Positions 38,735-56,736 of a stretch of DNA of 64,000 nucleotides are shown in pieces. Source of the DNA: Cryomorphaceae bacterium 1068 (GTDB lineage: Bacteria; Bacteroidota; Bacteroidia; Flavobacteriales_D; Cryomorphaceae); NCBI GenBank assembly GCA_027214385.1, contig JAPVXR010000003.1, positions 1-64,000 of the forward strand, given 5' to 3'. Position numbers and translations under genes: made by a program. The notes under the pieces are model-generated. The model saw only the letters and a list, made by a program, of their open reading frames with translations, was not told where the DNA came from and did not search any database. Each line of letters begins with the position of its first letter. Within the stretch, counting starts at the first letter, position 1.

Positions 38735-38735
38735 A

Positions 38736-39128
38736 ATGGCAACAGATCTAAATAGACACAACATCTCAACAGGCTCTACTTTCGAAGAGAGAATAGGCTA
38801 CTCCAGAGCTGTAGTGGCTGGAGAGTGGGTATTCGTATCAGGCACTACCGGCTACGACTACTCGACAATGACTATTTCTAATGACATTGTTAAACAAACC
38901 GAGCAGTGCTTGCAAAACATAGAGAAAGTATTGACCGAAGCAGGCTCGAAGCTCGAGGACATTGTGCGCGTAACCTATATTCTTCCCGAAGCATCGGAGT
39001 TTGAGATGTGCTGGCCCACTTTACGAAAGTACTTTGGCGAAGTAAAACCTGCTGCCACAATGATCTCAGCCGGTTTAGCAAATGACTTAATGAAAATAGA
39101 GATTGAAGTAACGGCAATCAGAAGTTAA
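38736..39128 (+). CDS. RidA-family protein
   Basis: The 130-aa protein belongs to the RidA/YjgF/UK114 group. It contains GYSRAVVAGEWVFVSGTTGY (~21-40), QTEQCLQNIEKVLTEAGSKL, and DIVRVTYILPEASEF. The conserved arginine that binds the imine carboxylate in true RidA (position ~105, in AR-x-x-V) is not obvious; the region reads PAATMISAGLAND, so this is probably one of the Rid subgroups without deaminase activity. It is cytoplasmic, trimeric in known members, and ends an apparent two-gene unit with the propeller lipoprotein. Confidence 0.85.
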   Translation: MATDLNRHNISTGSTFEERIGYSRAVVAGEWVFVSGTTGYDYSTMTISNDIVKQTEQCLQNIEKVLTEAGSKLEDIVRVTYILPEASEFEMCWPTLRKYFGEVKPAATMISAGLANDLMKIEIEVTAIRS

Positions 39129-39352
39129 AATCAGCCGTGAGCAAGCAATGGTCTATCTCTCTCTTACCTGAATGTTGCGAAGTTACCGTTCTATTTCTGC
39201 AGTTCAAAACAATACGGCATATCTTGATGTCTTGTATTTAAGATTCCATTTATTTCAGTTAAATAATAGGTAAAAGCTGTATTTAGAGGTAATTCTATCG
39301 TATACTCATCTTGTTTCTGATTATCGCGCTTTTGATGCTAAAGTTCAAATGT

Positions 39353-41866
39353 ATGTCTCTCAACAATGCTTTCCTGAAACGGATAGCTTCTCTATTGGTA
39401 GGAGTGCTTTTAGGAGTAAGTGCATTTTGTCAGGAAGTCCCAATCGTATCTTACTCGGTAGATCAGGACGGTAAAGTTCTGCTAGAAGTCAATTCTTCCG
39501 CTGATCACTATTATATCCTTAACGTAAGGCACATTGAAGAAGGGCCTTTTGAAATTAGTGTGTCATTGACAATGGGAGAGGAGGGAACCACCATCATTCA
39601 GGAGCCTCTGGGAGCTTATCCCATAGATCACTATCAAGTCTTGGAATATGATATCTCTGATCCCTTTGATACAGATGGTGATGGATACGATGACATTACG
39701 GAGTTCAGTAACCTTCCGTCGCAAAGTCCCTTTAGCGCTGCGGAGCCAATCGATATTATTGACGCTACTGTCGCCATTGATACCATTACCACGTTCAACA
39801 CTCTATCACTTCAGGCACCGGTGATACAGTTCTTTGAATTTTTGAATGGGAAGGAGTTTTTAAAGTTTATCATTCTGGACTTTGATTCCGATAATCCCAC
39901 GGTATACTTTATGAATAGTGGCACCCACTGGCTGCATGCTGAGTTTGCCGATTGGCTGGGTGTTGACTATCTGGCCGATGATGTTCAAAGGGGTAATGTA
40001 GTTTTTCACCCAACCATTCCCGGAGCTAACGGGACCTTGGGAACTTTTGCTTTCAATTACAGCAATAATGCCGAGCGTAGCTTTCCTACAGTGCAGCGCA
40101 CACAGGAGCTTTTAGCGGCAAATATGCCCATCATTAAAAACAACCTGGCCTACTTCGTAACGCTCAATAATGAGGGGGGCTATTACTGGGAGGAAGAGCT
40201 CTACGAAGGCTCTAGAGTTTCCGTAGTTTTAGAGTCTGACGTATATGCTCAGGTAGATTATCTGGGGCTGAATTTGGAGGAAGGATATGGTCGACTGCGA
40301 CAGATGGATTCAGATGATATTCCCGGGATCAAGGATATTGTGATCTACGAGTCAATTCCCAATCTCCTTCCGAGGGTTTCAGGAATTATCACCTCAGTGG
40401 TTCAAACCCCGCTCTCACATGTCAATTTACGAGCTATTCAAGACGAAATACCGAATGCCTTCATTCGAGACCCATTAGAACTCGAGTCTATAGCTGACTT
40501 GCTGGGCGGCTTCGTCTACTTTAGAACAGAACAGGACGGTTTCATTTTACGAGAGGCTTCATCCGAAGAAGTGAACGAGTGGTTTGAGAACATTCGACCT
40601 TCTGCAGCTCAGGAACCTCCACTAGACTTATCCTACACTTCCATATTGCCTCTCTCTGAAATTGACTTTGACATGTTTGATGCCTATGGAGCCAAATGTG
40701 CCAACGTAGCGACTATGGGGAATTTTGGCTTTCCCCAAAACACAATCCCCGAAGGGTATGGCGTGCCATTCCATTTCTACAAAGAGTTTATGGAGTTCAA
40801 TGGGTTTTTCGATGTGATAAGAGAAATGCTGGAACGTGAAGACTTTAAAGAAGACCGCGAAGTGCGAAATGATCTTCTGGCAATCTTAAGGGAATCAATA
40901 CGGCAAGCGCCTATGCCTGATTGGATTATGGCTCAATTGGCTGAGATGCATGCGAGTTTTCCTGAAGGCACTTCCGTAAGATGCCGTTCAAGTACGAATA
41001 ATGAAGATCTTCCCGGCTTTAGCGGTGCAGGGCTCTATGATTCAAAAACGCAACATCCCGACGAGGGTCATATCTCAAAATCCATTAAACAGGTTTATGC
41101 CAGCCTTTGGAATTTAAGGGCATTTGAAGAAAGAGATTTCTTCCGCGTAAACCATTTCAATTCTTGTATGGGTGTGCTCTGTCATCCCAATTACAGCCTG
41201 GAAAAGGTGAATGGAGTAGCTGTGAGTACCGATCCCGTTTATGGCACTACAAATACCTTCTACCTCAATTCGCAGCAAGGTGAAGACTTGATTACCAATC
41301 CCATTCCGAATACAACCCCCGAGGAAATTCTACTCGATAAGTTACCGGGAGAAGAGGATGAGTATTTTGTCATACAACGATCTAATCTTGTTCCTCCTGA
41401 CTCTCTGCTTATGGGACCTGAATCCCTATTGGAAATGAGGGGTTATTTGACGAAGATTCACGAAGAATTTGCCATTCTCTATGGAGCTGAACGCAATCCT
41501 ACTTTCGCCATGGATATAGAGTATAAGATTTCTGCCGATGATCAATTGATCATAAAACAGGCTCGCCCTTGGGTTTCTTATGTGCCTCAAGGCGATGAGT
41601 TATTTGCCAATCTAAAGCCCGAGAAGCTCTATCTTTATCCCAACCCTGTTGAGCAAACTCTTAATGTCAGATGTACAGAGTGCCGTCTAGATCGAATCGT
41701 AATCATGGATGTAGTGGGAAATACATTGTATGATAGTGCAGTGGATCCGTCAAATTCGGAAAAGTTCCAATTTGATGTCAGCTATCTCTCAACAGGTGTT
41801 TATATCATTTCAGGTTACTCCGAAGGTCAAGCCTCGGGTATTTCAAGCAAATTCTTCAAGCTTTAG
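39353..41866 (+). CDS. Exported PEP-synthase-like ATP-grasp protein with T9SS domain
   Basis: The 837-aa chain starts at ATG 39353 with a signal peptide (~1-26, ending VSAFCQ); a TTG at 39311 would bury it. A calcium-type loop FDTDGDGYDD lies at ~103. A swivelling PEP-utiliser-like part (~330-385) holds SGIITSVVQTPLSHVNLRAI with a His at the phosphohistidine position. The PPDK/PEP-synthase ATP-grasp domain (~445-740) shows YGAKCANVATMGNFGFPQ, RCRSSTNNEDLPGFSGAG and IEYKISADDQLIIKQARPW. The tail (~760-837) is a T9SS sorting domain (LYLYPNPVEQTL, LSTGVYIISG). An ATP-using enzyme exported to the cell surface is odd; it may be a phosphotransferase on glycans, like water dikinase, or a binding domain. 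Confidence 0.8.
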   Translation: MSLNNAFLKRIASLLVGVLLGVSAFCQEVPIVSYSVDQDGKVLLEVNSSADHYYILNVRHIEEGPFEISVSLTMGEEGTTIIQEPLGAYPIDHYQVLEYDISDPFDTDGDGYDDITEFSNLPSQSPFSAAEPIDIIDATVAIDTITTFNTLSLQAPVIQFFEFLNGKEFLKFIILDFDSDNPTVYFMNSGTHWLHAEFADWLGVDYLADDVQRGNVVFHPTIPGANGTLGTFAFNYSNNAERSFPTVQRTQELLAANMPIIKNNLAYFVTLNNEGGYYWEEELYEGSRVSVVLESDVYAQVDYLGLNLEEGYGRLRQMDSDDIPGIKDIVIYESIPNLLPRVSGIITSVVQTPLSHVNLRAIQDEIPNAFIRDPLELESIADLLGGFVYFRTEQDGFILREASSEEVNEWFENIRPSAAQEPPLDLSYTSILPLSEIDFDMFDAYGAKCANVATMGNFGFPQNTIPEGYGVPFHFYKEFMEFNGFFDVIREMLEREDFKEDREVRNDLLAILRESIRQAPMPDWIMAQLAEMHASFPEGTSVRCRSSTNNEDLPGFSGAGLYDSKTQHPDEGHISKSIKQVYASLWNLRAFEERDFFRVNHFNSCMGVLCHPNYSLEKVNGVAVSTDPVYGTTNTFYLNSQQGEDLITNPIPNTTPEEILLDKLPGEEDEYFVIQRSNLVPPDSLLMGPESLLEMRGYLTKIHEEFAILYGAERNPTFAMDIEYKISADDQLIIKQARPWVSYVPQGDELFANLKPEKLYLYPNPVEQTLNVRCTECRLDRIVIMDVVGNTLYDSAVDPSNSEKFQFDVSYLSTGVYIISGYSEGQASGISSKFFKL

Positions 41867-41918
41867 GTCTCGCGGCCTCAAACGGTTATTGCATTTTTCC
41901 GTTTTACTCCGCTTTAAG

Positions 41919-41932
41919 GTGACATAAGTCAC
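41919..41932. promoter_or_regulatory. CRP/FNR-type dyad upstream of the methyltransferase gene
   Basis: GTGACATAAGTCAC is a palindrome with TGA-N6-TCA spacing, about 102 bp before the methyltransferase start. Its 12-bp core is the reverse complement of the one upstream of ppdK, pointing to a common Crp/Fnr-family regulator. Confidence 0.45.
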
Positions 41933-42034
41933 ATATGATTCCTGACAGATTTGAAAATCACTCATGAATCCACTCCTTGTTGGTATCTTTAAAACTGATA
42001 GAAGTAAAAAGGTAAATCTTAGGATATTCAGGAA

Positions 42035-42643
42035 ATGACTGAAGTAAGAAAAAAGCATTGGGAGAGCGTTTATCGAACCAAATCGCCCGATCAGGTGAGT
42101 TGGACGCAACTAACTCCTCATGTTTCACTTGAATTGATTGAGTCTTCGGGCCTTGATAAAACGGCGCGCATCATAGATGTGGGAGGTGGTGACAGTCGAT
42201 TGGTCGATCATTTGCTGGATGAGGGCTTTGAGAACATTACGGTTCTTGATATCTCTGAACAGGCCTTGGAAAAGGTGAAGAAACGATTGGGTGACCGTGC
42301 CAATCTGGTAAAGTATATTAGTTCTGATATCGTCGATTTTAAGCCAGAAGGCACTTATGACCTTTGGCACGATCGAGCTGCCTTCCATTTTTTAATCAAC
42401 AACGAAGACATCGAAACATACCGATCAATCGTGAATACCCACGTAACAGATAGCATGATCATTGGTACGTTTTCAAAAAGAGGTCCCTTAAAGTGCAGTG
42501 GACTTGAGGTCAGTCAATACGACCCAATTGAATTGGAAGAGGTATTCAAACCTGAATTCAAAAGAGAAGAGTGCTTGAATAGAGATCACGAAACTCCATT
42601 TAGAACACAGCAAAACTTTATATTCTGTAGATTTAAAAAATGA
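42035..42643 (+). CDS. Class I SAM-dependent methyltransferase
   Basis: A 202-aa soluble protein. Its SAM pocket reads RIIDVGGGDSRLVDHLL (~47-63), followed by the acidic strand ITVLDISEQALEKVKKRLG and the motif YISSDIVDF. The HDRAAFHFLINNEDIETY segment (DLWHDRAAFHFL) is typical of methyltransferases acting on small molecules. It opens with the W-E-S-V-Y-R segment common to that group. The substrate is unknown. The CRP/FNR-like dyad upstream suggests respiratory or carbon-state control. Confidence 0.85.
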   Translation: MTEVRKKHWESVYRTKSPDQVSWTQLTPHVSLELIESSGLDKTARIIDVGGGDSRLVDHLLDEGFENITVLDISEQALEKVKKRLGDRANLVKYISSDIVDFKPEGTYDLWHDRAAFHFLINNEDIETYRSIVNTHVTDSMIIGTFSKRGPLKCSGLEVSQYDPIELEEVFKPEFKREECLNRDHETPFRTQQNFIFCRFKK

Positions 42644-42782
42644 CCGACTAACCTTGAGCCTGAGTAAAGCTCAATGGAAGGTGTCATATATTTTATCGAT
42701 ACACTTATTGAAATTATAGTTTTGGTATATATAAGCCTCCCATTAAATTTGGCCTCATCAACAAAGAACTAAATCACCTTAA

Positions 42783-45092
<2,310 letters not shown>

Positions 45093-45116: not shown

Positions 45117-45147
45117 GAAAAGCCGATGGTATCATCGGCTTTTTTTG
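45117..45147 (+). terminator. Terminator between katG and the array
   Basis: A perfect 8-bp stem (45121-45128 with 45133-45140) with a 4-base loop is preceded by A residues and followed by six T, 28 bases after the katG stop. The array that starts 73 bp further on therefore probably has its own promoter. Confidence 0.85.
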
Positions 45148-45219: not shown

Positions 45220-46014
45220 ATGATCAAATTCTTCCGCCGAATCCGTCAGAAACTCCTTACCGAAAGTCGCTTTGGTAGTTACCTATTGTATGCCATCGGC
45301 GAAATAGTTCTTGTAGTTATCGGGATATTAATTGCCTTGCAAATCAATAATTGGAATGAGGAGCAAAAGCAACAAAGACTTGAGCAGGAGTATTATTGTC
45401 GTCTTTCTGAAGATGTGACGCAGGATAAAGAACAGATGAGCATACTGCTTGGCTTGGCGCAAGAACGATTGGAAGCCTCAAATCAGTCCGTTAGATTATT
45501 GCTGGATGAGAATTCGAAAAAAGTCGAAGTCGGTCAGTTGATTTCGCTTTCGCTGAAGGCCGTATATTCTGACTTCCAGCCAAACAATTCAGCTTATGAA
45601 GACCTGAAATCAGGAGCCAATTTGAATATTATTTCTGATAAGTCGGTGATAAAAGCCCTGAACCATTACTTTAATCGCGTTGAAGAATTGAAGAGTATTA
45701 TAATGGTAAACGGTAAGTATGCAGTTGATTTATCATTTAGGCATACCGACAATTTTGCAAATGGTACCAATCAGGCTTCAATAGCCAACGGGAGATTCTC
45801 GAAAGGTTTGGATGAAGACTTGAAAAAAGCATTTCCGATTGACGAGGATGAATTGCTCAAGCCCGAGATGAGAGAACGACTGCTTGGAGAGTCGCTTGAA
45901 TACGTTTCTGTGAATACTCGTCAGGTTGAACTTTACAGTAAGCTATTGGATGAAATCATTGAATTAGAAGGACTATTGGGACAAAAATGCGAAAGGTCTT
46001 CAGTAACTGAATAG
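45220..46014 (+). CDS. DUF6090-like array protein, copy 1
   Basis: A 264-aa type II membrane protein, with N-tail type LLTE (RQKLLTESRFGSYLLYAIGE). Its core motif near residue 126 reads YEDLKSGANLNIISDK, close to that of copy 10, with which it also shares an LN.Y...E segment and an MVN...VD motif. It contains two cysteines (near 60 and 257), rare in this set. It has the 73-bp upstream gap that must hold any array promoter; no good -33/-7 pair was seen. Unlike most copies, it does not overlap the next gene (31-bp gap). Confidence 0.85.
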   Translation: MIKFFRRIRQKLLTESRFGSYLLYAIGEIVLVVIGILIALQINNWNEEQKQQRLEQEYYCRLSEDVTQDKEQMSILLGLAQERLEASNQSVRLLLDENSKKVEVGQLISLSLKAVYSDFQPNNSAYEDLKSGANLNIISDKSVIKALNHYFNRVEELKSIIMVNGKYAVDLSFRHTDNFANGTNQASIANGRFSKGLDEDLKKAFPIDEDELLKPEMRERLLGESLEYVSVNTRQVELYSKLLDEIIELEGLLGQKCERSSVTE

Positions 46015-46045
46015 TATTTGAGCCAATAACGAACCATTTTTGACG

Positions 46046-46801
46046 ATGATCAAATTCTTCCAACGTATCAGAAAAGAGATGATAAAAGAAAATCGCGTAT
46101 CGAAGTATATGCTCTACGCTATTGGCGAAATAGTCCTGGTGGTCATTGGGATACTGATTGCCTTGCAAATCAACAGCTGGAACCAACTGCGCCAACAAAA
46201 CAATCAGGAAAAAATCTATTTGGAAGACCTAAAAAGAGATCTCATTTTTGATATTGAAACACTCGATGAAAAGATCGTGCAGAATGAAACTTCGATAGAA
46301 AATGTCACTAAAGTACTGACGTTGATTTCGTCGAAAACAGATTTTTCTGATGAGGATAAAATGAATCTATACCAACTGCTAATCCCTATTTGCGGTGAAA
46401 CCTATTTTATTCCCGAACAGGGAACCATACATCAGATAGAAGCCAGCAGTGCGGGGAGTTACCTGCGCAACAAGGCGCTTAAAGACCAGATTTTTAGATA
46501 CTATTCTAGCCGAGAACGCGAGGGGAAGAACATGGAGCAAAGCATACAACTCTATCAACACCATTTTATAACACCCAATATTCTATCTATCGGTATTGAT
46601 CCCGTATTTTCAGAAGTAGCTTTCAATGGGAATTATGAACTGGACACCATTGATTTTACTTCACTCTTGAAAAACAAGGAGTTCAATATCGCTCTGTTTA
46701 TGAAGAAAGTAGGGGCTACCAATCAGAACGGTTTATATCAAATCGCACAAAAGGAAGCGGAACAAATTATTGCGCTCATCGATGATGAATTAGAGATATG
46801 A
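46046..46801 (+). CDS. DUF6090-like array protein, copy 2
   Basis: 251 aa, starting at ATG 46046 by alignment with the other copies rather than at the TTG two codons earlier. The N-tail is the MIKE type (KEMIKENRVSKYMLYAIGE). The core is altered to EASSAGSYLRNKAL after PEQGTIHQI, resembling copy 8 (HEGTVRDIV before its core). The early periplasmic part DLKRDLIFDIETLDEKI also pairs with copy 8. One Cys (~115). Its stop overlaps the ATG of copy 3 by ATGA. Confidence 0.85.
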   Translation: MIKFFQRIRKEMIKENRVSKYMLYAIGEIVLVVIGILIALQINSWNQLRQQNNQEKIYLEDLKRDLIFDIETLDEKIVQNETSIENVTKVLTLISSKTDFSDEDKMNLYQLLIPICGETYFIPEQGTIHQIEASSAGSYLRNKALKDQIFRYYSSREREGKNMEQSIQLYQHHFITPNILSIGIDPVFSEVAFNGNYELDTIDFTSLLKNKEFNIALFMKKVGATNQNGLYQIAQKEAEQIIALIDDELEI

Positions 46802-47556
46802 TCAAATTCTTCAGACATATCCGAAAAGCCATGATAAAAGAAAGCAAAGCCTCGAAGTACCTGCTCTACGCAATCGGCGAAATTGTGCTCGTGGTGATCG
46901 GTATATTGATTGCCCTCCAAATCAATAATTGGAATCAAAATGAAACCAATAGAGCTAGAGAAATAGCGATTCTCAAAGATTTAAACCAGGAGTTTAAAAA
47001 GAACACATTGAAACTCGATTCCTTGATTCAAGACCACCGTGGGATGCTTGAGGCAGCTAATGAGATCATGATGCTGATAGGAGAACCTGAAAATACTTTG
47101 GCAAACCATAATGTAGACAGCCTAATTTACCTCTCCATCGATTATGATGATTTCAATCCTAGTCAATCTGTAATCGACGAAGCAATAGCATCGGGAACGA
47201 TAAGCTTGATTCGTTCGGATTCTCTGCGTTCGCTCATTTTTGACTGGGTAAGCGCCATGGGTGGCATTAAAGAGTCATATGCTACTATGGACGAAATGGG
47301 TCAAACGATGACGCTTCCGTATCTTACCAAATACGGCTCTATGAAGAATATTGACTATTTCGGACTGATGGAAGCAAATGGTAAATCCAAATTCGAATCC
47401 AGAAACCCAGCGCTTTTCCAGGAAGTAGAATTCGAAAACATTATGGATAATCAAGCTTGGGGAATGAAAAATTATCTGAATAAATTGGAGGGACTGAAGC
47501 CTTTAGTAGATCAAATTATGCATCTGACGAACCGAGAAATAGAAAAGGGTAAATGA
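46798..47556 (+). CDS. DUF6090-like array protein, copy 3
   Basis: 252 aa. The N-tail is the MIKE type (KAMIKESKASKYLLYAIGE), but the periplasmic part belongs with copies 6 and 7: an ILKDLNQEFKKNTLKLD opening, then DFNPSQSVIDEAIASG and TISLIRSDSLRSLIFDW at ~120-147. This mismatch between the two halves is one of the clearest mosaic signs in the array. No cysteine was seen. ATGA overlaps join it to copies 2 and 4. Confidence 0.85.
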   Translation: MIKFFRHIRKAMIKESKASKYLLYAIGEIVLVVIGILIALQINNWNQNETNRAREIAILKDLNQEFKKNTLKLDSLIQDHRGMLEAANEIMMLIGEPENTLANHNVDSLIYLSIDYDDFNPSQSVIDEAIASGTISLIRSDSLRSLIFDWVSAMGGIKESYATMDEMGQTMTLPYLTKYGSMKNIDYFGLMEANGKSKFESRNPALFQEVEFENIMDNQAWGMKNYLNKLEGLKPLVDQIMHLTNREIEKGK

Positions 47557-48335
47557 TCAAATTCTTCCGCCGCTTCCGCCAAAAACTGCTTATGGAAAAC
47601 CGAGCTTCGAAGTACCTGCTATATGCTATTGGTGAAATCGTGCTTGTAGTCATCGGGATATTGATAGCCCTGCAAATCAACAATTGGAATGAGCAGCGTA
47701 AAGAACGCGGCAGAGAAGTCGAATTTCTCAAGGGTTTAAAGACCGACCTCCTAGCTGATAGGGCAAGTTTGGAGAGTGTGATTGAGAATAGAACGGCAAA
47801 AGTAAAAAGTTGCATTGCATTACAGGGTAGCATCCAATTGGAGACCTACACTCAAGTGTTTTCAGCAGATTCAATGATTTCAACTGTTCTTGGTTGGGTG
47901 GAATATGTACCGCAGACCAATACCTTCGACGAATTGGTCAATTCCGGCAATCTCGGGATCATTAAAAATGACAGCATTAAAAACAGATTGCTGAAGCTAA
48001 AACAAGATAGAGAGCGTGACCATACTTACACCCTGCACATGCGCAGAGAGTACGATCACTACCTCTATGATCGGCACGCCGAATTAGGATCTGTTTGGCC
48101 TTTTGGAGATTTTGAAGAGTCAGCCAAACAAGGAGTATTAGTTTACCAAGTCCTTTCGGACGACGAAGTTGAATTGATAGCAAACGGAATCAAAGCGTAT
48201 CTAAGTGATCGGCGTGTGAGAAATGGATTGCGTCTTGCAGCCGGCAATAACTCAGGTCTGCTATGGGGCTGTCAGAAAATGTACAAAGATGGGAATGAAC
48301 TCATCGAATTGATAGAAGAAGAGATAAACAAATGA
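47553..48335 (+). CDS. DUF6090-like array protein, copy 4
   Basis: 260 aa with the LLME tail type (RQKLLMENRASKYLLYAIGE). The core reads TFDELVNSGNLGIIKND (~125-140) and is among the most family-typical in the set. The C-terminal third has a distinct region, HTYTLHMRREYDHYLYDRHA, rich in His and Tyr. It has two cysteines, in KSCIALQG (~88) and LLWGCQKM (~243). Its stop overlaps the ATG of the short remnant that follows. Confidence 0.85.
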   Translation: MIKFFRRFRQKLLMENRASKYLLYAIGEIVLVVIGILIALQINNWNEQRKERGREVEFLKGLKTDLLADRASLESVIENRTAKVKSCIALQGSIQLETYTQVFSADSMISTVLGWVEYVPQTNTFDELVNSGNLGIIKNDSIKNRLLKLKQDRERDHTYTLHMRREYDHYLYDRHAELGSVWPFGDFEESAKQGVLVYQVLSDDEVELIANGIKAYLSDRRVRNGLRLAAGNNSGLLWGCQKMYKDGNELIELIEEEINK

Positions 48336-48484
48336 TCAAATTCTTCCGCCATATACGTCAAATCCAAAAGTGCTTCCAAAACCTTAAAGGGTGGACTTTT
48401 GCAGTTAATGTTTTGAATGAAAATGTGTGCGCGGGCTCGCCTCTTCAGGGGCTGGGGGCTTCGCGGCTAATAGAAAATCGATGA
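48332..48484 (+). pseudogene. 50-codon remnant of an array gene
   Basis: The first ten codons encode MIKFFRHIRQ, identical in protein to the start of copies 5, 9 and 11. The sequence then switches to 40 unrelated codons (IQKCFQNLKG...LIENR) with no membrane segment. It keeps an ATGA overlap at both ends, with copy 4 (48332-48335) and copy 5 (48481-48484), so the reading-frame chain is unbroken. A deletion or replacement has removed almost the whole gene while leaving the translational relay intact. It may be a dead copy or a short coupling peptide. Confidence 0.6.
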
Positions 48485-49254
48485 TCAAATTCTTCCGACA
48501 TATCCGACAACGCATGATTAAAGAAAACAGAGTTTCTAAGTACTTGCTCTATGCTATCGGCGAAATCGTGTTGGTGGTAATCGGAATACTGATTGCCTTG
48601 CAGATCAATAATTGGAATGAGGCGCGCAAAGAAGGAGAACAACGCCAGCAACTCATTTCATCGCTATTGGAAGATTTCGAGTACAATAGGGAAACATTGC
48701 TGAATCATAAATTACCAGCTATGGATATGGCCATGGAAAAAATGGAATTATTCTTCCGTTTGATGCAAGAAGATACTGATGTGAATAAAGGTCAACTGCT
48801 TTCAAGTGCACAGGTTTCGGTGGATTCACTAAGGAAGCTGGCAATACCCTTCTTCCAAAGTGAACCATTCAGTGCCAACCTTACAACATTGAGCGAAGCT
48901 TCTTCAAGCGGAAAACTAAGTCTATTGAAGAACAAAGAACTATTCAGGGAATTCACTCAATTTGAAATGTACTATGATCGCTTCCTCTATTTGACTGAAG
49001 AAAGCACACATGCCTATTTCAATGGTTGTTTATGGGAAATCAGGAGAACAGTGGATCCCGATGTTCTTGCCGGAAGAAAATCCATGCCAAACCTCAACTA
49101 TGAGGAGTACAAGAAGATTATGGATCAACCTCTCGCAAAAACCGCATTATACAATGCACAAATCCTTAGGTATAACAAGAGATCAACGCTTTCTAACCTA
49201 TTAGAAAACACAGATAAGATCATCTCCATTTTAAAAGAAATGCAAGAATCATGA
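48481..49254 (+). CDS. DUF6090-like array protein, copy 5
   Basis: 257 aa from ATG 48481; a longer frame from GTG 48427 would add 18 foreign residues from the remnant region and is rejected. The N-tail is the MIKE type (RMIKENRVSKYLLYAIGE). The core is shifted to ~142 and reads ASSSGKLSLLKNKELF. The region before it is Met- and Phe-rich (MAMEKMELFFRLMQ). One Cys occurs near 180 (FNGCLWEIRR). ATGA overlaps join it to the remnant and to copy 6. Confidence 0.85.
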   Translation: MIKFFRHIRQRMIKENRVSKYLLYAIGEIVLVVIGILIALQINNWNEARKEGEQRQQLISSLLEDFEYNRETLLNHKLPAMDMAMEKMELFFRLMQEDTDVNKGQLLSSAQVSVDSLRKLAIPFFQSEPFSANLTTLSEASSSGKLSLLKNKELFREFTQFEMYYDRFLYLTEESTHAYFNGCLWEIRRTVDPDVLAGRKSMPNLNYEEYKKIMDQPLAKTALYNAQILRYNKRSTLSNLLENTDKIISILKEMQES

Positions 49255-50003
49255 TTCAAATCTTTAGAAAGATCCGCCAGCGACTCTTGTCCGAATCAAG
49301 ATTTGGCAAGTATTTACTCTATGCATTTGGAGAGATTGTGCTGGTGGTGATAGGGATACTGATCGCCATCCAACTGAACGAATGGCGCAATGACGCGATC
49401 AATAGCCAAAAAAGGGACAAAGTGTTACAAGCGTTGCACTTCGAATTTCAGTCAAATCTGGCTCAGATGGATACCGTTCAATCTTATCAAAGAAGAATAA
49501 CCTTGGACTATCCTGTCGTCATGGATCTGATCAAGACTGTGGATGATCTTGCCAATGACTCCATCCTTCTTCTCGCACATAATCACATGGGAACTACTTG
49601 GAGTTTTGACCCTATCAACGGGGCGCTCCGTTCTGCTATTTCCTCAGGAGAGATCCATCTTATCGAGAATGATAGACTCTTGGATCTTTTGTTCAGCTGG
49701 GAAGATGTGGTCAATGATTCAAAAGAAGAGTCAGATAGACAAAGAGAATTTCAGACCAAGCAACTGGATCTATTCAAGAAGCACGTGCGAGTTGGCGATC
49801 TCTGGGCGTCATATTATCCGAACAGCATTCTCAGCCATTTCCCATCCGATGCTCGTGGACTCTATAAAGACGAGCTATTCGAAGATTATATATCCCTCAG
49901 TTATTTCATGGCGTATGAGTATTTGCTAGAACTCGATCTCATCAGAGCCAACAATTTGGAGATTCTGGAATTGATAGAAAGTGAAACAGTGAAATTGCAA
50001 TGA
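49251..50003 (+). CDS. DUF6090-like array protein, copy 6
   Basis: 250 aa. Its first residues are MIQIFRKIRQ, the only copy lacking the K-F-F triplet, and its helix end reads IAIQLNEW instead of IALQINNW. The tail is the LLSE type. The periplasmic part groups with copies 3 and 7 (ALHFEFQSNLAQMD, SFDPINGALRSAISSG and EIHLIENDRLLDLLFSW, ~120-145). No cysteine was seen. ATGA overlaps on both sides. Confidence 0.85.
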   Translation: MIQIFRKIRQRLLSESRFGKYLLYAFGEIVLVVIGILIAIQLNEWRNDAINSQKRDKVLQALHFEFQSNLAQMDTVQSYQRRITLDYPVVMDLIKTVDDLANDSILLLAHNHMGTTWSFDPINGALRSAISSGEIHLIENDRLLDLLFSWEDVVNDSKEESDRQREFQTKQLDLFKKHVRVGDLWASYYPNSILSHFPSDARGLYKDELFEDYISLSYFMAYEYLLELDLIRANNLEILELIESETVKLQ

Positions 50004-50809
50004 TCAAATTCTTCCGTCGCATACGCCAAAAGCTTCTTATGGATAGTAAATTCTCAAAGTACCTGCTCTATGCCATTGGAGAAATTGTGCTGGTGGTCAT
50101 CGGAATTTTGATAGCCTTGCAGATTAACAATTGGAAAGAGACCAAAAAGGAGCGTGCACAAGAGAAGGCTATTCTTAGTCAGGTTCATACCGAATTCAAG
50201 AGCAATCTCAAGCAGCTGGACGAAAAGATTGACATCAGAAAAAGACAAATAACAGGAGCGCAGGATTTACTCGCCTTCATTGACTACCCCGATTCAAGAG
50301 TGAAGGATAGTATAGAAAATGCGCTGACTTATACCATTGGATACTCCACTTTTGATCCCATTGTAAATGACTTGGCTTCAGCGGGGAGTTTGCGGATAAT
50401 TCGCAATGATAGCCTCAAATTGCTCTTATCTCAATGGACCAGCGAGTTGGTTCAAGTCATCGAGTCGGAGCAGTCGTGGTACAAGTACCGAAATGAAGTC
50501 TATGTGCCGTTTTTGATAGAAAACACCCAGCTTCGTACCTTGAGAAATGCTGCAATGAATAGAACTTTCGTCGGGAAGTTTCTCATTGATGTGGATAACC
50601 GGGAAGCCTTGGACTCACGCGTGGATTCCATTGGCAATTCTGCTTTTAGTTATGACATTAATGTGCTTTTGAACAATCCTGACTTTGAAGACCACCTTAC
50701 TCGTTGCATAGTAACCAATAGCATTTCAAATGTGCAGTCGTATATTTTACGCAAAAGAATATTGCTGATTCTTAAGATATTGGAATCAGAATTAGACCTG
50801 AAGAATTGA
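50000..50809 (+). CDS. DUF6090-like array protein, copy 7
   Basis: 269 aa, the longest copy. Its first 45 codons are nearly the same at nucleotide level as those of copy 12 (for example the run cgccaaaagcttcttatgga is shared), yet its periplasmic part groups with copies 3 and 6 (VHTEFKSNLKQLD, TFDPIVNDLASAGS, LRIIRNDSLKLLLSQW). This is a direct hint of 5'-end exchange. It overlaps copy 6 by ATGA and is separated from copy 8 by 10 bases. Confidence 0.85.
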   Translation: MIKFFRRIRQKLLMDSKFSKYLLYAIGEIVLVVIGILIALQINNWKETKKERAQEKAILSQVHTEFKSNLKQLDEKIDIRKRQITGAQDLLAFIDYPDSRVKDSIENALTYTIGYSTFDPIVNDLASAGSLRIIRNDSLKLLLSQWTSELVQVIESEQSWYKYRNEVYVPFLIENTQLRTLRNAAMNRTFVGKFLIDVDNREALDSRVDSIGNSAFSYDINVLLNNPDFEDHLTRCIVTNSISNVQSYILRKRILLILKILESELDLKN

Positions 50810-50819
50810 ACCCTAGCCC

Positions 50820-51548
50820 ATGATTAAGCTATTCCGAAAAATCCGCCGGCGATTGCTATCTGAAGGCAAGTTCAGCAATTACCTGCTATATGCCATTGGC
50901 GAAATCGTTTTAGTGGTGATTGGAATTCTTATAGCTCTGCAAATTAACACAAGCAGTCAAAGAGCAAAAGACCAAGCTCAAGAACAAGTCTACCTGAAGA
51001 GTTTTCAAATCGATCTCGAGAAGGATATACAGGAGTTGGATCGTGTGATTGCGAAGGCTACTCGTGTTTCGGTTCTGGCAGATTCACTACTCATGTTTTT
51101 TGAGAATAGAGACCTTCTGGACGACGAAACACTTGAGCCCATCATCTTGGAATTGTCCAATTTCACTATCTACCTATCGCATGAAGGAACTGTTAGAGAT
51201 ATTGTAGGTTCTGGAGATTTAGATCTTATTCAATCAGATAGTGTTCGAATTAAAATGGCGTCTTGGGAAGCTGACCTAAAGAGCATAAGGGAATGGGAAA
51301 GTTTAAGTAAAGAAGCCACCGCTGACTACATGGATTATCTTGGAGAAAACATAGACATGTACAAGCGCGAATCTGGTAAATCTATGATTGACGAAGAGTC
51401 AAAAGCTAGGATTCTTGAAGATCGTTATTTCCTCAACTTAGTAGCCAGACGGTACCATGAAATGACGATTTTGGCGCGCCTTTATCAGTCAGAATTGGAA
51501 TCTACCCTCAACACGCTTAAGGTCGTAAAATCAGAATTAAGACCATGA
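50820..51548 (+). CDS. DUF6090-like array protein, copy 8
   Basis: 242 aa, with LLSE tail type (RRLLSEGKFSNYLLYAIGE) and a helix end reading ALQINTSSQ, so the usual N-N-W after the membrane segment is lost. The periplasmic part resembles copy 2 (FQIDLEKDIQELDRVI; SHEGTVRDIVGSGDLDLIQS near 124-136). It has no cysteine. It overlaps copy 9 by ATGA. Confidence 0.85.
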   Translation: MIKLFRKIRRRLLSEGKFSNYLLYAIGEIVLVVIGILIALQINTSSQRAKDQAQEQVYLKSFQIDLEKDIQELDRVIAKATRVSVLADSLLMFFENRDLLDDETLEPIILELSNFTIYLSHEGTVRDIVGSGDLDLIQSDSVRIKMASWEADLKSIREWESLSKEATADYMDYLGENIDMYKRESGKSMIDEESKARILEDRYFLNLVARRYHEMTILARLYQSELESTLNTLKVVKSELRP

Positions 51549-52321
51549 TAAAATTCTTTCGCCACATCCGTCAAAAACTACTCGCTGAGAGGAGACTATC
51601 CGGTTATTTGGCTTATGCCATCGGCGAAATTATTCTCGTGGTGATCGGGATATTGATCGCCCTACAGATCAATACATGGAATGAGGAAAACAAGCTCGAG
51701 AAGTCGAACAGAGTCCTCTTAAAAAAGCTGGTTGGTGAGTTGGATCTCAATATGGACAGATTGATGTATCTCGATACGTCAAATAAAGACGAGAATGGTG
51801 TTTCAAAACTAGACCGTATACTTGCAAATGCCGACACAGCTCTGCATTACATGACTTCAGGACTTGATACTTCCGGAATAGTCTGGATGTTGGAAACACG
51901 GCAATGGTGGGCCTTTCAATTCAACTTGCATTCTTCGGTGTATCAGGAAATGATAAGTACGGGTAGGCTTTACACACTCGAACCTGACTCGCTTATTCAA
52001 CAGATTGAAACCTATTACAAGAGTTTAGAACAACGCGAATTTTACCTGGATAAGATGGTCGATGGTGTACATCGGCACTGGGAAGATTGCAAATACGGTG
52101 AGGCCAGCTTGGAGACAGAGTTCAATAAATATGGCGTCGATGCTCTTGACCATCATCAATGGGTTTTTGATCGGCATTCCGAGAACTACTTGGACCTTCA
52201 GCAAGCCGTGAAACGCTCTTCTATTGTAATGCATTATGAAAAAGCAGAGCTCAAATCACAGCTTAAGCTTTCACAAGAACTAAAGAATCAAATTGAAAAC
52301 GTTTTAGCACAAGACAGATGA
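51545..52321 (+). CDS. DUF6090-like array protein, copy 9
   Basis: 258 aa, tail LLAE with SGYLAYAIGE. The periplasmic part forms a pair with copy 13: MDRLMYLDT, then a GLDTSGI segment (~108) and a late FDRHSENYLDL near 220. The core is shifted and altered to MISTGRLYTLEPDSL (~136). It has one Cys (~182, WEDCKYG) and many aromatic residues (RQWWAFQF). ATGA overlaps on both sides. Confidence 0.85.
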   Translation: MIKFFRHIRQKLLAERRLSGYLAYAIGEIILVVIGILIALQINTWNEENKLEKSNRVLLKKLVGELDLNMDRLMYLDTSNKDENGVSKLDRILANADTALHYMTSGLDTSGIVWMLETRQWWAFQFNLHSSVYQEMISTGRLYTLEPDSLIQQIETYYKSLEQREFYLDKMVDGVHRHWEDCKYGEASLETEFNKYGVDALDHHQWVFDRHSENYLDLQQAVKRSSIVMHYEKAELKSQLKLSQELKNQIENVLAQDR

Positions 52322-53085
52322 TAAAGTTCTTCCGAAAAATCCGTCAACGCTTACTAAAGGAAGGGAGGCTGTCCAGTTACCTCCTCTACGCCATCGGCGA
52401 AATCGTGCTTGTAGTGATTGGGATTCTTATTGCTTTGCAGATCAGCACTTGGAGCCGAACTCGTCAAGAAAGCGATAAAGTGAAGTCATACCTGAGAAAC
52501 ATTGAAGCCGATCTCAACCAACAACTGGCCTACATTGATATCCAACTTGAGTTTGAATATAATTGCGACTCTCTTGCCAAGTCGTTATTGGCTCGTTATA
52601 GAAAGGAACAGGCTCTCGCCATAGATTCTGTCTCATCCGGTCAATTGTATAATCTGACCATACGCAATACTTTCACCAAGGCAGATCCCACCTATCAAGA
52701 TCTCATTTCCACAGGGAACATTGGTTTGATCAAAGATGAATTACTTCGAAACGAAATCCTCAATTACTATCTCGAACTTGAACGTTTTGAAACGATCATG
52801 ATGATCAACAATACACTATACGTAGATGAGATGTTTGCTATGAAAATGGTGAACAATGCCTATATGGTCAGCGATGTACAGATTGGAAATACAGACCGCA
52901 GACTATTCGAAGTCTCCAACGAGATGTTAGAAGTTCCAGAGCATGAGATGTTGGTGATCAATCTCATCAAGATTAGAGAAGATATTGCCGTAGGACATGT
53001 TAAATTTATGAATGAACTCAAAGAAAAGACAGAATCGATGCTCGATGTCATCCAGAATCATATCATTCTAGAACAGAAAGAATAA
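52318..53085 (+). CDS. DUF6090-like array protein, copy 10
   Basis: 255 aa, tail LLKE (RQRLLKEGRLSSYLLYAIGE), helix end ALQISTWSR. The core YQDLISTGNIGLIKDE (~127-142) and the following LNYYLELERFETIMMINN make it the closest partner of copy 1. One Cys (~82, EYNCDSLAK). It overlaps copy 9 by ATGA and stands 8 bases before copy 11. Confidence 0.85.
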   Translation: MIKFFRKIRQRLLKEGRLSSYLLYAIGEIVLVVIGILIALQISTWSRTRQESDKVKSYLRNIEADLNQQLAYIDIQLEFEYNCDSLAKSLLARYRKEQALAIDSVSSGQLYNLTIRNTFTKADPTYQDLISTGNIGLIKDELLRNEILNYYLELERFETIMMINNTLYVDEMFAMKMVNNAYMVSDVQIGNTDRRLFEVSNEMLEVPEHEMLVINLIKIREDIAVGHVKFMNELKEKTESMLDVIQNHIILEQKE

Positions 53086-53093
53086 GAAGAGAA

Positions 53094-53819
53094 ATGATCA
53101 AATTCTTCCGCCATATCCGCCAAAAGCTTCTTATAGAAAACAAAGCTTCAAAATACCTGCTCTATGCCTTTGGCGAAATCATTCTTGTCGTGATAGGAAT
53201 ATTGATTGCCTTGCAGATCAACAATTGGAACGAGTCTCGAAAACTCGAGAATAAAGTCGCTAGCATCTACGCGATTGTGAAAAGTGACCTGCAATTGGAT
53301 ATGGAGAATATTGACTACGTTCTTGAAGCAATGTTACCAGAAGACACATTGCTAGGAATAATATTGGAAGGTCGTATGACGCGTGAACTATACGAGAATT
53401 GTGATAACTGTGAATTTGTAGTAGGTGGTTTCCCTGATATCACCTTGAGGTCTCGTGGTTTGACTTTACTTGAAGAGAACAGTACAATTTTCGACGCGCA
53501 GAAGGACAGTCTATTTATTCAAATAAGTGAGTTTTATTCCTATTATTTTACAGAGATAGAAGTAGATATGGAGGAAATCGAGATGGATTATAGCGATAAT
53601 TTTGCTTTTTGGAAGACCAATAAAACCTGGTTTGCTGATAACATCCACAGTATAAAAAATGATGATTTTGTACAGTATGCGTTAACCGATCCAGATTACA
53701 TAAATCGCGTCGCATCATGGCGTAGACTCTATTTTCAAAATTACCTCAGCCACTTGAAAGAGTACAAAGAAAGTGCCTTGATTTTGATAGCAGATCTAGA
53801 TAAACAAACCAACCAATAG
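53094..53819 (+). CDS. DUF6090-like array protein, copy 11
   Basis: 241 aa, the shortest full copy. Tail LLIE (RQKLLIENKASKYLLYAFGE), with Phe replacing Ile before the conserved G-E, as in copy 6. It has a CDNCEF pair (C-x-x-C at ~103-106) not found elsewhere in the array. The core is replaced by SRGLTLLEENSTIFDAQKDS. The C-terminal half is acidic and aromatic (FYSYYFTEIEVDMEEIEMDY). It is followed by a 25-bp gap. Confidence 0.85.
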   Translation: MIKFFRHIRQKLLIENKASKYLLYAFGEIILVVIGILIALQINNWNESRKLENKVASIYAIVKSDLQLDMENIDYVLEAMLPEDTLLGIILEGRMTRELYENCDNCEFVVGGFPDITLRSRGLTLLEENSTIFDAQKDSLFIQISEFYSYYFTEIEVDMEEIEMDYSDNFAFWKTNKTWFADNIHSIKNDDFVQYALTDPDYINRVASWRRLYFQNYLSHLKEYKESALILIADLDKQTNQ

Positions 53820-53844
53820 CGGGTAGGCATGACTACCGAAACCA

Positions 53845-54606
53845 ATGATTAAATTTTTCCGCCGCATCCGCCAAAAGCTTCTTATGGAAAGTAAATTCTC
53901 AAAGTACCTCCTCTACGCTATTGGAGAAATCATCCTTGTGGTGATAGGGATATTAATCGCTTTGCAAATCAACAATTGGAATGAAGGCCGAAAGGAGGCT
54001 AGCTTTGAAATTCAAATTCTCAAGGCATTCAAAGAGTCGCTAGAAACGGATTTATCCGACGTAGATGCCAATATTAATAGACACCAGCAAGGACTCCGCT
54101 CAGCCGATTCAATTTTGGTTTTACTGGAGTCAACACAATCAATCAACGAAGATTCATTGGCTCAACTCTTTGCTGCCGCGATGATGCATACGCGTTTTGT
54201 TCATTCCACCAGTGCTTTTGAATCGCTCAAAGCAAAAGGAGTGAATATCATCTCAAATCCAATTTTACAGAAAAAAATTGTAGACGTTTACGATTCGCAG
54301 TACAGTTTCTTCTTGCTTAACGAACAGGACTTTATTGACCAAATAATGATCGGCTACAACACCATCATGCCAACACGTTTCGAAGAATCCTTTAATATTG
54401 ACATCAGCACCAGCGAACTGACGGGCCACTTGAAGCCACTTGATTTTGAGGCCCTCAAAAAAGACCAAGAGTTTCTATATTATTTTAAATCTCTCAGAAA
54501 CTGGACTAAAATTATGATCGAATTTCAATATGCCATCTTAAGAAGCAACATCGTTGATCTACAGAAAATGATCGATGAAGAAATAGAACGAATAGAGGGA
54601 TTATGA
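53845..54606 (+). CDS. DUF6090-like array protein, copy 12
   Basis: 253 aa. Its start uses atgattaaatttttcc, different at silent positions from most copies, yet the next ~35 codons match copy 7 closely. The periplasmic part is unlike copy 7: KAFKESLETDLSDVDANI, then AFESLKAKGVNIISNPILQK (~125-144), a core in which S-G becomes K-G. No cysteine was seen. It overlaps copy 13 by ATGA. Confidence 0.85.
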   Translation: MIKFFRRIRQKLLMESKFSKYLLYAIGEIILVVIGILIALQINNWNEGRKEASFEIQILKAFKESLETDLSDVDANINRHQQGLRSADSILVLLESTQSINEDSLAQLFAAAMMHTRFVHSTSAFESLKAKGVNIISNPILQKKIVDVYDSQYSFFLLNEQDFIDQIMIGYNTIMPTRFEESFNIDISTSELTGHLKPLDFEALKKDQEFLYYFKSLRNWTKIMIEFQYAILRSNIVDLQKMIDEEIERIEGL

Positions 54607-55379
54607 TCAAATTCTTCCGAAAAATCCGCCAAAGGCTTATGTCAGAAAAGAAATTTAGTTCCTATTTGTTGTATGCGATAGGCGAAATAATTCTCGTCGC
54701 CATTGGAATACTCATTGCCGTAAATGTGAACGATTGGAATAAGGAAAAAGAGCAAGACAGATTAAAGACCGAGTTAACCCGAGAAATGATTGCGGAGTTG
54801 AACTATAATATTGATCGAATAAAATTTCTGGATACGGATACCTCGAAAATGCCATATCCCATTCGCTTTGCTGACTCGCTGTTCATGGAGCGTAGGAATT
54901 ATTTCGAGGGTGGTCTGGACACCAACGAAATTCGTAAATTATTTGTTGGGCCTATTTTTCGATACAATGAATTCAACATGGAATATGATGTGTTCGAACA
55001 AATGAAACAGACCAATGTGATCAATCGGTTCGATAAAAAAGTCAAGACGGCCATTAAAAACTATTATAAGCTTTTGGAACGCGAAGAAGGATACAATCGC
55101 GTAACCCTTGAACCCATCCAGAATGCTTACGCCAAAACGCTATATGGTTACCAGCGCTTAAGGAGGGATTATTACGCTGATTCCCTAACTTATTTCAGTA
55201 AAAACGCCTGGGTATTCGATCCTGATTCAAGGGATTATTTAGACCTTGAATCCTATGTTGATGTCATTGCAGGAAGTGTTCATAGCTCGAGGGCAAGGAT
55301 GCTTAATATTCTTGAAAATTCTGAAGAATTGAAGCTGATTCTCCAAGAGGAACTAGAAAGTGAGGACCTGGATAAATAG
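54603..55379 (+). CDS. DUF6090-like array protein, copy 13
   Basis: 258 aa. The membrane segment is the most diverged in the set (EIILVAIGILIAVNVNDWNK). Its periplasmic part pairs with copy 9: IDRIKFLDTDTSK, GGLDTNEIRKLF, and SRDYLDLESYVDV near 215. The core is MKQTNVINRFDKKV, with the S-G lost. Rich in Tyr and Arg between 160 and 205. It overlaps copy 12 by ATGA; a 73-bp non-coding gap separates it from copy 14. Confidence 0.85.
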   Translation: MIKFFRKIRQRLMSEKKFSSYLLYAIGEIILVAIGILIAVNVNDWNKEKEQDRLKTELTREMIAELNYNIDRIKFLDTDTSKMPYPIRFADSLFMERRNYFEGGLDTNEIRKLFVGPIFRYNEFNMEYDVFEQMKQTNVINRFDKKVKTAIKNYYKLLEREEGYNRVTLEPIQNAYAKTLYGYQRLRRDYYADSLTYFSKNAWVFDPDSRDYLDLESYVDVIAGSVHSSRARMLNILENSEELKLILQEELESEDLDK

Positions 55380-55452
55380 TGTTTTTAGAAATAATTGCCA
55401 GAAATTGTTCTTCCGTGGCACTTGAGAAATCCAAGGAAAATAAGGAACCGAA

Positions 55453-56247
55453 ATGATCAAATTCTTCCGAAAAATCCGCCAGAGAATGATAAAAGAAAGT
55501 AGAGTTTCAAAATACTTTCTCTACGCCATCGGCGAAATTATTCTCGTGGTGATAGGGATTCTTATTGCTCTTCAGGTGAATAACTACAACAATGAGTTGA
55601 AAATCCATAAAGAAGAAATCGCTTTGCTCCAAGATCTGAGAATTGACCTGGAAATGGCAGACGGAAAAATCCAGAAACAATTGAAGTATTTTCGAAGAAG
55701 CCAAGATATTCATTACCAGATTTACAACGAATCCATAGGCAAGGCTTCATTCGACTCTACCATGCGCTACCATGATTTGGTTTGGCACTCAGTAGTGAGG
55801 GATTTCATCGGTGAGAATTACACGTCGAAAATCGGTGAAATCAGCGATGAACGCCTAATGCGAATTTTGCGTGATTATCTCTGGAGGGAGCAATTGGCGT
55901 TGGAAGCAATCGATGAATGGAATGACGTCAAGTTCAACAAGGTTCGACCATTTCTCGATAAAAATGGACTTTACGATAACCAAGTAGCCTTTAACGATGA
56001 TCCCTATGAGTTTATGACCATGGGTAAGGATGGAATTGTAATAAACTACCACAAACTATCGGAGCTGTATGGAACCCAAGATCTTGACCAACTTCTTTAC
56101 TATCTCCGCCATTCAGCCTCTTGGTGCCTGCATTGCATGGGGAAGCTGCAAGATGCAAGTGCTAACCTAAATTTGGCCATTGATTATTACATCGATGGTG
56201 ATTATGAAAAGCTGGATGATATCGAACCACTGGAAGGATATTATTAA
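55453..56247 (+). CDS. DUF6090-like array protein, copy 14
   Basis: 264 aa with MIKE tail (RMIKESRVSKYFLYAIGE) and helix end ALQVNNYNN. The periplasmic part is an outlier: the core is reduced to SKIGEISDERLMRILRD (~124-140), and the C-terminus has a WCLHC motif (W224, C225, C228) followed by a TPR-like helix pair (MGKLQDASANLNLAIDYYID). The W-C-x-x-C resembles a thioredoxin active site but the fold is not evident. It is separated by 73 bp from copy 13 and could be transcribed on its own. Confidence 0.85.
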   Translation: MIKFFRKIRQRMIKESRVSKYFLYAIGEIILVVIGILIALQVNNYNNELKIHKEEIALLQDLRIDLEMADGKIQKQLKYFRRSQDIHYQIYNESIGKASFDSTMRYHDLVWHSVVRDFIGENYTSKIGEISDERLMRILRDYLWREQLALEAIDEWNDVKFNKVRPFLDKNGLYDNQVAFNDDPYEFMTMGKDGIVINYHKLSELYGTQDLDQLLYYLRHSASWCLHCMGKLQDASANLNLAIDYYIDGDYEKLDDIEPLEGYY

Positions 56248-56418: not shown

Positions 56419-56736
56419 ATGACAATACAAGTAAATACAGACAACAACATCAAAGGCTCTCAAAACATGGAAGCCTATTTCACGGAAAAGATAGAAACGG
56501 GATTAAAACACTTTGCTGATCACATTACTCGTGTGGAAGTGCACCTGTCTGACCAAAATGGAGAAAAGAGCGGGACCAATGATATTCAGTGCCGCTTAGA
56601 AGCAAGGTTAGAAGGGCAGCAGCCCATCCTCGCAGAGAGCAGGGAAGAAAACCATGAAAAGGCCCTGAGTAAAGCCATCAGTAAAATGCAAGCAGCACTT
56701 CGAACCAAGATCGGGAAGATGCAAAACAACAGATAA
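56419..56736 (+). CDS. hpf: HPF/RaiA-type ribosome hibernation factor
   Basis: The 105-aa protein is the short form of hibernation-promoting factor: an N-terminal strand VNTDNNIKGSQNMEAYFTEKI, the helix LKHFADHITRVEVHLSD, and the basic KALSKAISKMQAALRTKIGKM end. It would bind the 30S decoding region and silence ribosomes in starvation. The long-form C-terminal dimerisation domain is absent, as in E. coli HPF/YfiA. It has its own terminator and lies 171 bp after the array. Confidence 0.85.
   Translation: MTIQVNTDNNIKGSQNMEAYFTEKIETGLKHFADHITRVEVHLSDQNGEKSGTNDIQCRLEARLEGQQPILAESREENHEKALSKAISKMQAALRTKIGKMQNNR

Follow-up and report, generated by a model that had tools for sequence, protein, structure and literature searches.

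The stretch of DNA considered here (the window) comprises 64,000 nucleotides of Cryomorphaceae bacterium 1068, positions 1 to 64,000 of contig JAPVXR010000003.1, and carries at 45220-56247 a chain of fourteen genes of the DUF6090 family (PF19578). This family has no described function and is not named in any paper of the open-access literature searched. We regard the chain as an acquired repertoire array of unusual construction. It very probably arose by accretion, and the outer halves of such proteins are, judging from sequence comparisons, probably exchanged as units. The whole explanation, which combines an accreted repertoire, ectodomain exchange and a protective function, is the one that we tentatively prefer, at slightly under even chances.

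All fourteen genes lie head to tail on the + strand with intact reading frames and encode proteins of 241-269 aa. As delimited by open reading frames (ORFs), they are gene 1 (45220-46014, 264 aa), gene 2 (46046-46801, 251 aa), gene 3 (46798-47556, 252 aa), gene 4 (47553-48335, 260 aa), gene 5 (48481-49254, 257 aa), gene 6 (49251-50003, 250 aa), gene 7 (50000-50809, 269 aa), gene 8 (50820-51548, 242 aa), gene 9 (51545-52321, 258 aa), gene 10 (52318-53085, 255 aa), gene 11 (53094-53819, 241 aa), gene 12 (53845-54606, 253 aa), gene 13 (54603-55379, 258 aa) and gene 14 (55453-56247, 264 aa). The only other item among them is a remnant after gene 4 (48332-48484, + strand), an open frame of 50 codons with the family's first 10 residues, which starts in the stop of gene 4, ends in the ATGA of gene 5 and overlaps both genes by 4 bases. 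These coordinates bear out a sequence-only reading of the same DNA, which had described fourteen paralogues and a remnant with nothing else in between. Its count of nine 4-base overlaps in fourteen junctions was also exact, because the remnant contributes two to the seven found at the 13 junctions between intact genes, those seven having no intergenic base. The assignment to DUF6090 made there was confirmed with the PF19578 profile, which matches all fourteen genes, 13 of them over the curated cut-off of 23.5 bits; gene 13 scores 21.0 bits (20.8 in a second scan). The whole genome holds 23 matches, and the nine outside the array are distributed over contigs C16 (three), C13 (two), C1, C6, C20 and the window's own contig C3 (one each).

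Most array genes are shown by comparison of their sequences to belong to separate lineages of a family that has members in common between different genera and families of Bacteroidota. In a FastTree phylogeny of 292 members, the nearest relative of each of the fourteen genes is in another genome and none is nearest to a gene of its own array. The tree comprised the window genes and members from foreign loci, restricted to 220-300 aa (292 of 316 labelled genes) and excluding the genome's nine other copies. When these nine were included in a BLAST comparison, the best match was still foreign for 12 of the 14, with identities of 64% for gene 1 (Portibacter marinus), 60% for gene 3 (a Cyclobacteriaceae bin) and 55% for gene 12 (Winogradskyella aurantia). 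Gene 8 presents a near tie between a foreign copy (203 bits) and the genome's own copy on C1 (193 bits). Members of 12 other arrays correspond, their order and combination being shuffled; window genes 3 and 12, for instance, both have counterparts in loci L027, L055 and L088 (36-61% identity in the ectodomain).

The syntenic locus of a same-genus genome (G001) is consistent with acquisition. There, a katG-like gene (80% identity) and the gene of a 1137-aa protein (75%) flank two other ORFs and no array; the names katG-like and, below, pyrophosphatase-like were assigned by eye. The blastn alignment blocks end at 45144, at a terminator-like hairpin with a T-run (45117-45144, + strand, 12-pair stem), and resume at 57441, so that the segment 45145-57440, array included, has no match at this locus. 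The same-genus genome, which is 92% complete, contains no DUF6090 match at E ≤ 0.001. Two points weigh against pure accretion. Genes 9 and 13 are mutual best BLAST matches (34% over 251 aa) and may represent an old local duplicate pair. On the tree, array membership requires 123 changes compared with 126-141 in 100 shuffles, a slight clustering that no shuffle reached. Arrays thus resemble nearly random draws from the family, with a degree of clustering.

Two further differences from the same-genus locus were noted near the array. Directly 3′ of the array lies an S30AE (PF02482) gene (56419-56736) without match in the same-genus locus, and a second segment of 6 kb (36729-42794) is missing from same-genus locus L148, where the pyrophosphatase-like and katG-like genes are adjacent.

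Chains are not a peculiarity of this genome. DUF6090 matches were found in 10 of 40 genomes and in 56 of 395 Bacteroidota genomes, own genome included in both cases; the larger search scored no more than 8 candidates from any one genome, copy numbers there being lower bounds. Chains occur in many Bacteroidota genera and single copies are common too. Array size in relatives had been named beforehand as a check on the idea of a co-acting set, which scattered single copies only would have spoken against; this is not the picture obtained. Of the 79 foreign loci, 78 were used (L029 has no profile copy), and they contain no DUF6090 copy on the opposite strand, a uniformity of orientation beyond chance. 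In one genome, G155, a stretch of about 30 kb carries 35 copies, arranged as runs of 15, 9 and 11 between which stand an epimerase gene and a gene of 622 aa with an ion-channel domain. Proteins of 617-622 aa with such a C-terminal domain (PF07885) stand between DUF6090 genes in two genomes (L154:8868-10736 and L027:1029-2882), possibly as partner, possibly as chance cargo. A constant partner gene was rejected: clustering of 948 neighbouring ORFs gave no consistently adjoining family, none being present beside DUF6090 in more than 14 loci, and then at varying distances.

Each gene consists of a constant 5′ module of about 46 codons and a variable helical ectodomain that reads to the stop. The module encodes a basic amphipathic cytoplasmic helix and a membrane helix bearing an invariant glutamate. 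In the alignment of the fourteen array proteins the 18 invariant columns all lie within residues 1-39, and in that of 116 members the 10 invariant positions all lie within residues 21-39, the glutamate in the membrane helix among them. The N-terminus is basic in all fourteen (+5 to +7 over residues 1-21), and the part after residue 46 is acidic in all (-3 to -19). The PF19578 model begins at residue 28 and thus omits the conserved tail. The AlphaFold2 model of gene 3 (116 alignment rows, mean pLDDT 95.1) shows a short amphipathic helix, a continuous helix at 18-93 that begins in the membrane, short helices within 98-137 and long helices at 141-179 and 210-251. For gene 13 the main helices are predicted in the same order with lower confidence (mean pLDDT 75.8). 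Charge, alignment and predicted structure agree with the layout read earlier from the sequence, a basic tail, one membrane helix and a variable outer part. Seven of the fourteen proteins were scanned with Pfam and yielded no domain over cut-off except DUF6090.

Some variants of this architecture occur elsewhere. Long forms of 347-358 aa carry about 90 extra C-terminal residues (L027:8213-9256, L081:7442-8506, L034:10847-11899, L072:2935-4011), with sub-cut-off likeness to SusF_SusE (0.038, L081) and DUF3471 (0.0069, L034). A sulfatase of 592 aa (L095:3819-5597) has about 37 first residues that resemble the DUF6090 module by eye, PF19578 giving no match; it looks as if the module had recombined onto another gene.

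The way in which these genes adjoin suggests how ectodomains could be exchanged. Among 183 adjacent pairs, 37 overlap by 4 bases and 42 by 8, so that 79 use a stop within the next start. At the 8-base overlaps the downstream gene starts with ATGATTAA in 39 of 42 cases, its TAA being the upstream stop, and this start sequence has stops in both other frames. The overlapping stops (TGA in ATGA, TAA in ATGATTAA) would thus come from the beginning of the following gene. Within a chain, every ectodomain is flanked by two direct repeats, its own 5′ module and that of the next gene. The borders of the exchanged unit would be set by recombination within the 5′ module and by the gene end, where the next module starts. 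A head-to-tail orientation would follow from such an arrangement.

We compared codon identity at conserved residues between the first 46 codons and the ectodomain in 27 pairs whose ectodomains are at least 62% identical. The first 46 codons are less alike than the ectodomain in 18 of 27 pairs at this cut, 15 of 19 at 65% and 12 of 14 at 70%. No such bias is seen in 41 orthologue pairs of neighbouring genes (18 of 41, means 0.524 and 0.516), taken from the first start codon of each ORF, so that some of their 5′ ends may be wrong. Fisher p values against this control are 0.085, 0.013 and 0.011, respectively. In three of four similarity profiles, among them Cellulophaga L032:10001 versus Algoriphagus L056:243, similarity is low upstream, increases at nucleotides 90-120, within the membrane helix, and falls off at the stop codon. 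The pair L037:10690/L045:6144 has a synonymous divergence of 1.44 over the 5′ module, as against 0.26 for the ectodomain. A codon-level bias in the 5′ module is seen over genomes. Codons of the 5′ modules are shared beyond the expectation from usage by a ratio of 1.19 within a genome, 1.05 between genomes and 1.33 in the window. The simplest reading is that recombination sets foreign ectodomains behind the local 5′ module.

Several observations weigh against exchange. Over all 27 pairs the signal is not significant (p 0.085), and the 70% cut was picked after the table had been seen. The fourth profile (L072:2935/L098:12687) is similar upstream too and displays an insertion/deletion around the start rather than an exchange, and a cassette pair (L072:1883/L098:10001) is colinear. 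Within the window, adjacent copies are not closer to each other in their 5′ modules than distant ones are (0.468 versus 0.469). Exchange is supported for foreign members; for the window array, whose relatives are too distant to display it directly since synonymous sites are saturated, we infer it.

Single-gene units without constant neighbour, shared between distant genomes, diverse in their outer parts and with intact frames suggest proteins that work singly and are worth collecting. We suppose, with rather less than even confidence, that this work is protective. Each protein would act from the inner membrane, alone or in homomeric form, and its helical bundle in the periplasm would recognise a single foreign agent, for example a toxin that acts on the envelope or a protein of phage entry. 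The chain would be a defensive stock enlarged by capture, working like an orphan-immunity array. The repertoire proposed in the sequence-only reading is in line with these data. Another proposal made there, a hetero-oligomeric receptor, found no specific support, since arrays differ in content and order.

Several results argue against a protective role. The membrane helix is conserved far above the need of a passive anchor, which favours a shared partner or signalling; an invariant helix of this kind suggests a common partner, an oligomer or an effector role rather than a passive immunity protein. It would be equally compatible with a constant effector that carries a variable sensor. Ectodomain dN/dS ranges from 0.09 to 0.32 in five pairs, without sign of positive selection. 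Nothing convincing was obtained with PADLOC (best 0.0012, one member), PHROGs (best 0.0028), NCBIfam (best 0.0027) or by sequence against solved structures (best 0.05), and two members with likeness to an Rz-like spanin family (best 0.0098) were not convincing. No toxin or phage gene was recognised nearby among neighbours that were clustered, a few of them being also scanned with Pfam.

The first alternative is a receptor or sensor set, in which the bundle would bind ligands and signal through membrane helix and tail, alone or in mixed oligomers. The near invariance of helix and tail would suit it, and the predicted bundle resembles sensor domains (NarQ Z 9.8, Vc1313 9.6, Tsr 8.6). However, fold comparison returned numerous bundles of natural or designed origin, Z reaching 12.2; FAT domains and designed bundles equal the sensor domains in score, and Z values of this size between helical bundles may reflect merely a common arrangement. 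Foldseek found nothing at E ≤ 0.001 in the PDB and a viral library. Furthermore, the array proteins finish with the last helix of the bundle and have neither a second membrane helix nor, in the seven scanned with Pfam, a signalling domain, and differing arrays with merely slight clustering on the tree are not expected of a fixed complex. We therefore consider a receptor set unlikely.

Exclusion of phage entry specifically, rather than toxin immunity, is a narrower form of the protective reading. It would agree with single-gene, membrane-anchored, repertoire-like and mobile units, and antiphage genes reportedly occur among integron cassettes elsewhere. Against it stand the PADLOC and PHROGs results above, and a match of one long relative to SieB reaches only 0.03, below cut-off. 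In this restricted form the proposal is improbable.

Tandem duplication of the ordinary kind within a lineage, in the service of dosage or envelope structure, would account for tandem genes in the same orientation, for the pair of genes 9 and 13 and for a few close pairs within other arrays (L045 genes 9/10, 66%; L082 genes 1/7, 64%). As main origin it is rejected by the tree and by the twelve foreign best matches, and the same-genus genome devoid of the family also speaks against it; we deem it very unlikely.

Besides chains, DUF6090 genes are encountered in a form reminiscent of integron cassettes. Many lone copies in foreign loci finish with AACGAAAGCACAAC... and are preceded by ...GTTGTGCTTCATTA, and the stretch between such ends, approximately 130 nt, is an imperfect palindrome; in the consensus L-box stem, 5 of 13 pairs are changed on both sides. 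For this palindrome (R1), the covariation term of RNAalifold is unfavourable (+0.65) and the R ends are left unpaired by the program, their pairs being imposed by hand. For the R2 consensus, built on six of this genome's own short sites, the program itself pairs both boxes, R ends and L boxes. The R1 covariance model gave 147 matches at E ≤ 1 in 80 sources, 143 of them in the orientation of the DUF6090 gene, and some form regular series bounding unrelated genes (L097, L034, L098). At E ≤ 0.001 it matches 67 of the 395 genomes, and attC-like sites at E ≤ 0.01 are present in 28 of the 79 loci. With loose single-end patterns, the R′ end has no orientation bias (104 +, 123 -), whereas longer patterns are biased (64 versus 5). 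Integron exchange occurs at the G-TT point, and agreement of ends within a cassette is what this would predict: end types fully agree in 21 of 49 pairs within presumed cassettes and in 1 of 12 across the junction, chance pairs included.

Tyrosine recombinases of 368-376 aa are located upstream of such sites in L040, G171, G148 and G155, that of L040 being 50% identical to the one of the window genome. In L040 and G148 attC-like sites bound DUF6090 genes at either end; in G171 a site lies at one end. The window genome's recombinase (C16:81999-83120), with attC-like sites 1.8 and 12 kb downstream, is laid out in an integron-like manner. It scores 184.5 bits with TIGR02249, below the cut-off of 265, in two stretches that skip model positions 180-239 (the IntI-specific part), and 226 bits with NF040815 (XerA type), over the cut-off of 220. 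The system is not filed as an integron because its integrase is below cut-off and lacks the IntI-specific part. As a query, the recombinase matches 106 of 395 genomes at E ≤ 1e-50, many through the catalytic part alone. XerA-type recombinases with their own N-terminal part of about 100 aa, followed by same-strand attC-like sites and unrelated cassettes, were noted in L121 (L121:1516-4951 is contig C16 of the window genome), L040, L150, L151 and L152, and a small cysteine-rich gene stands divergently beside the recombinase in L121, L040 and L150.

In the window genome, R2 detects at least 28 sites at E ≤ 0.01, six of them rows of the model, with 150 of 405 candidates scored. Three sites in the same orientation at the left end of the window, 1052-1132 (E 1.4e-9), 2547-2603 (0.013) and 58-123 (0.54), mark a small group of integron-like cassettes, some 42 kb away from the array. 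The DUF6090 chain does not belong to this group, because between 42000 and 58000 the best match of R2, run without filters, has an E of 1.8. Over the 316 genes of foreign loci and window, 104 are lone and 212 chained, a gene being called chained when a neighbour is no more than 60 bases away, a rule under which window gene 14 is lone. With R1 sites of E up to about 0.05, an attC-like site adjoins at least one side of 38 lone copies (17 on both sides) and 12 chained copies (none on both sides). The G155 chain has no such site at E ≤ 0.1. Cassette-borne and chained copies are intermixed on the tree as if at random (30 changes, shuffles 27-33), and the genes therefore seem, from their phylogeny, to pass between the two forms. 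That the window chain itself is a decayed integron-like cassette array, its attC-like sites lost, is highly improbable: the sites beside lone copies, those of this genome and the C16 integrase could be taken in its favour, but an integron array was rejected here with both covariance models (R1 has no match in the window at E ≤ 1), 200 of 212 chained genes have no site, and most intergenic gaps are too short for one.

Concerning expression, we infer a single transcript over the whole array, and this cannot be put more firmly since promoter-like sites (29 versus 29.5 in shuffles) and terminator-like sites (9 versus 9.5) are at chance level. Translation would be coupled along the chain. One of these sites is the strong terminator-like hairpin at 45117-45144 that separates the katG-like gene from gene 1. 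An Rfam scan of the window gave no match. No structured RNA is claimed, because z reaches only -1.4 to -1.7 in leader-like stretches before some genes and +0.34 in the window remnant. In several genera (L034, L072, L079, L082, L085, L087) a truncated DUF6090-like start, followed by a short hairpin and by similar stretches, recurs about 100 nt before full genes; it may be a leader or a deletion scar.

A family known only by its number thus turns out to be widely shared in Bacteroidota and kept in chains, and its construction apparently allows one outer half to replace another behind a membrane half that is retained. Should the protective reading hold, environmental bacteria would possess a large and so far unexploited collection of single-gene factors for defence or immunity; should the receptor reading hold, a combinatorial sensor array. 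A broader proposal, possible but rather doubtful at present, is that a Bacteroidota integron-like platform, with a XerA-type integrase that has its own N-terminal domain and with divergent attC sites, captures ectodomain-swapping membrane proteins as one of its recurrent cargoes. These would be stored in long attC-free chains, their ectodomains being traded between species via direct-repeat 5′ modules, and would make up a protective repertoire of single genes that recombines and may reach dozens of specificities. A recombinase of the C16 type would fall under the common integron-integrase cut-off.

These features echo those of three described systems. With the four-helix-bundle sensor domains of chemoreceptors and histidine kinases the array proteins share a membrane helix running into a periplasmic helical bundle, but they differ in having neither a second membrane helix nor a signalling domain, and the likeness in Z is no better than with unrelated bundles.

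Integrons as such have already been reported from Bacteroidota. Lone DUF6090 genes resemble their cassettes in being often placed between imperfect palindromes with GCACAAC/GTTGTGC-type ends, some beside a tyrosine recombinase, and complementary R ends and paired L boxes are present in the cassette system of relatives and of this genome. In contrast, the window chain has no attC-like sites, and the recombinase lacks the IntI-specific part and is below the integrase cut-off. Integrons and attC clusters without integrase, as treated in three reports (PMC9668308, PMC8618304, PMC9024848), one of which assayed archaeal sites with suicide plasmids (PMC9668308), offer the comparison for lone DUF6090 genes elsewhere. 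A survey of 2022 gives Salinibacter ruber as its complete-integron case in Bacteroidetes (PMC9024848).

The nearest described analogy is offered by the recombinase-associated acquired interbacterial defence (rAID) arrays of gut Bacteroidales (PMC12247911). The rAID arrays possess a tyrosine recombinase and conserved intergenic motifs (PMC12247911), and the window chain has neither: the integrase profile has 8 matches in the genome, none on contig C3, and the repeats detected in the array are the 5′ ends of the genes themselves. It is for this lack of recombinase and motifs that the chain cannot be counted among rAID arrays. Its genes also all share one membrane module, unlike those of rAID. 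The two are nevertheless alike (PMC12247911) in being acquired and diverse within the array and in consisting of short co-oriented genes, those of rAID having about 100-300 codons and the fourteen of the window, all on one strand, encoding 241-269 aa.

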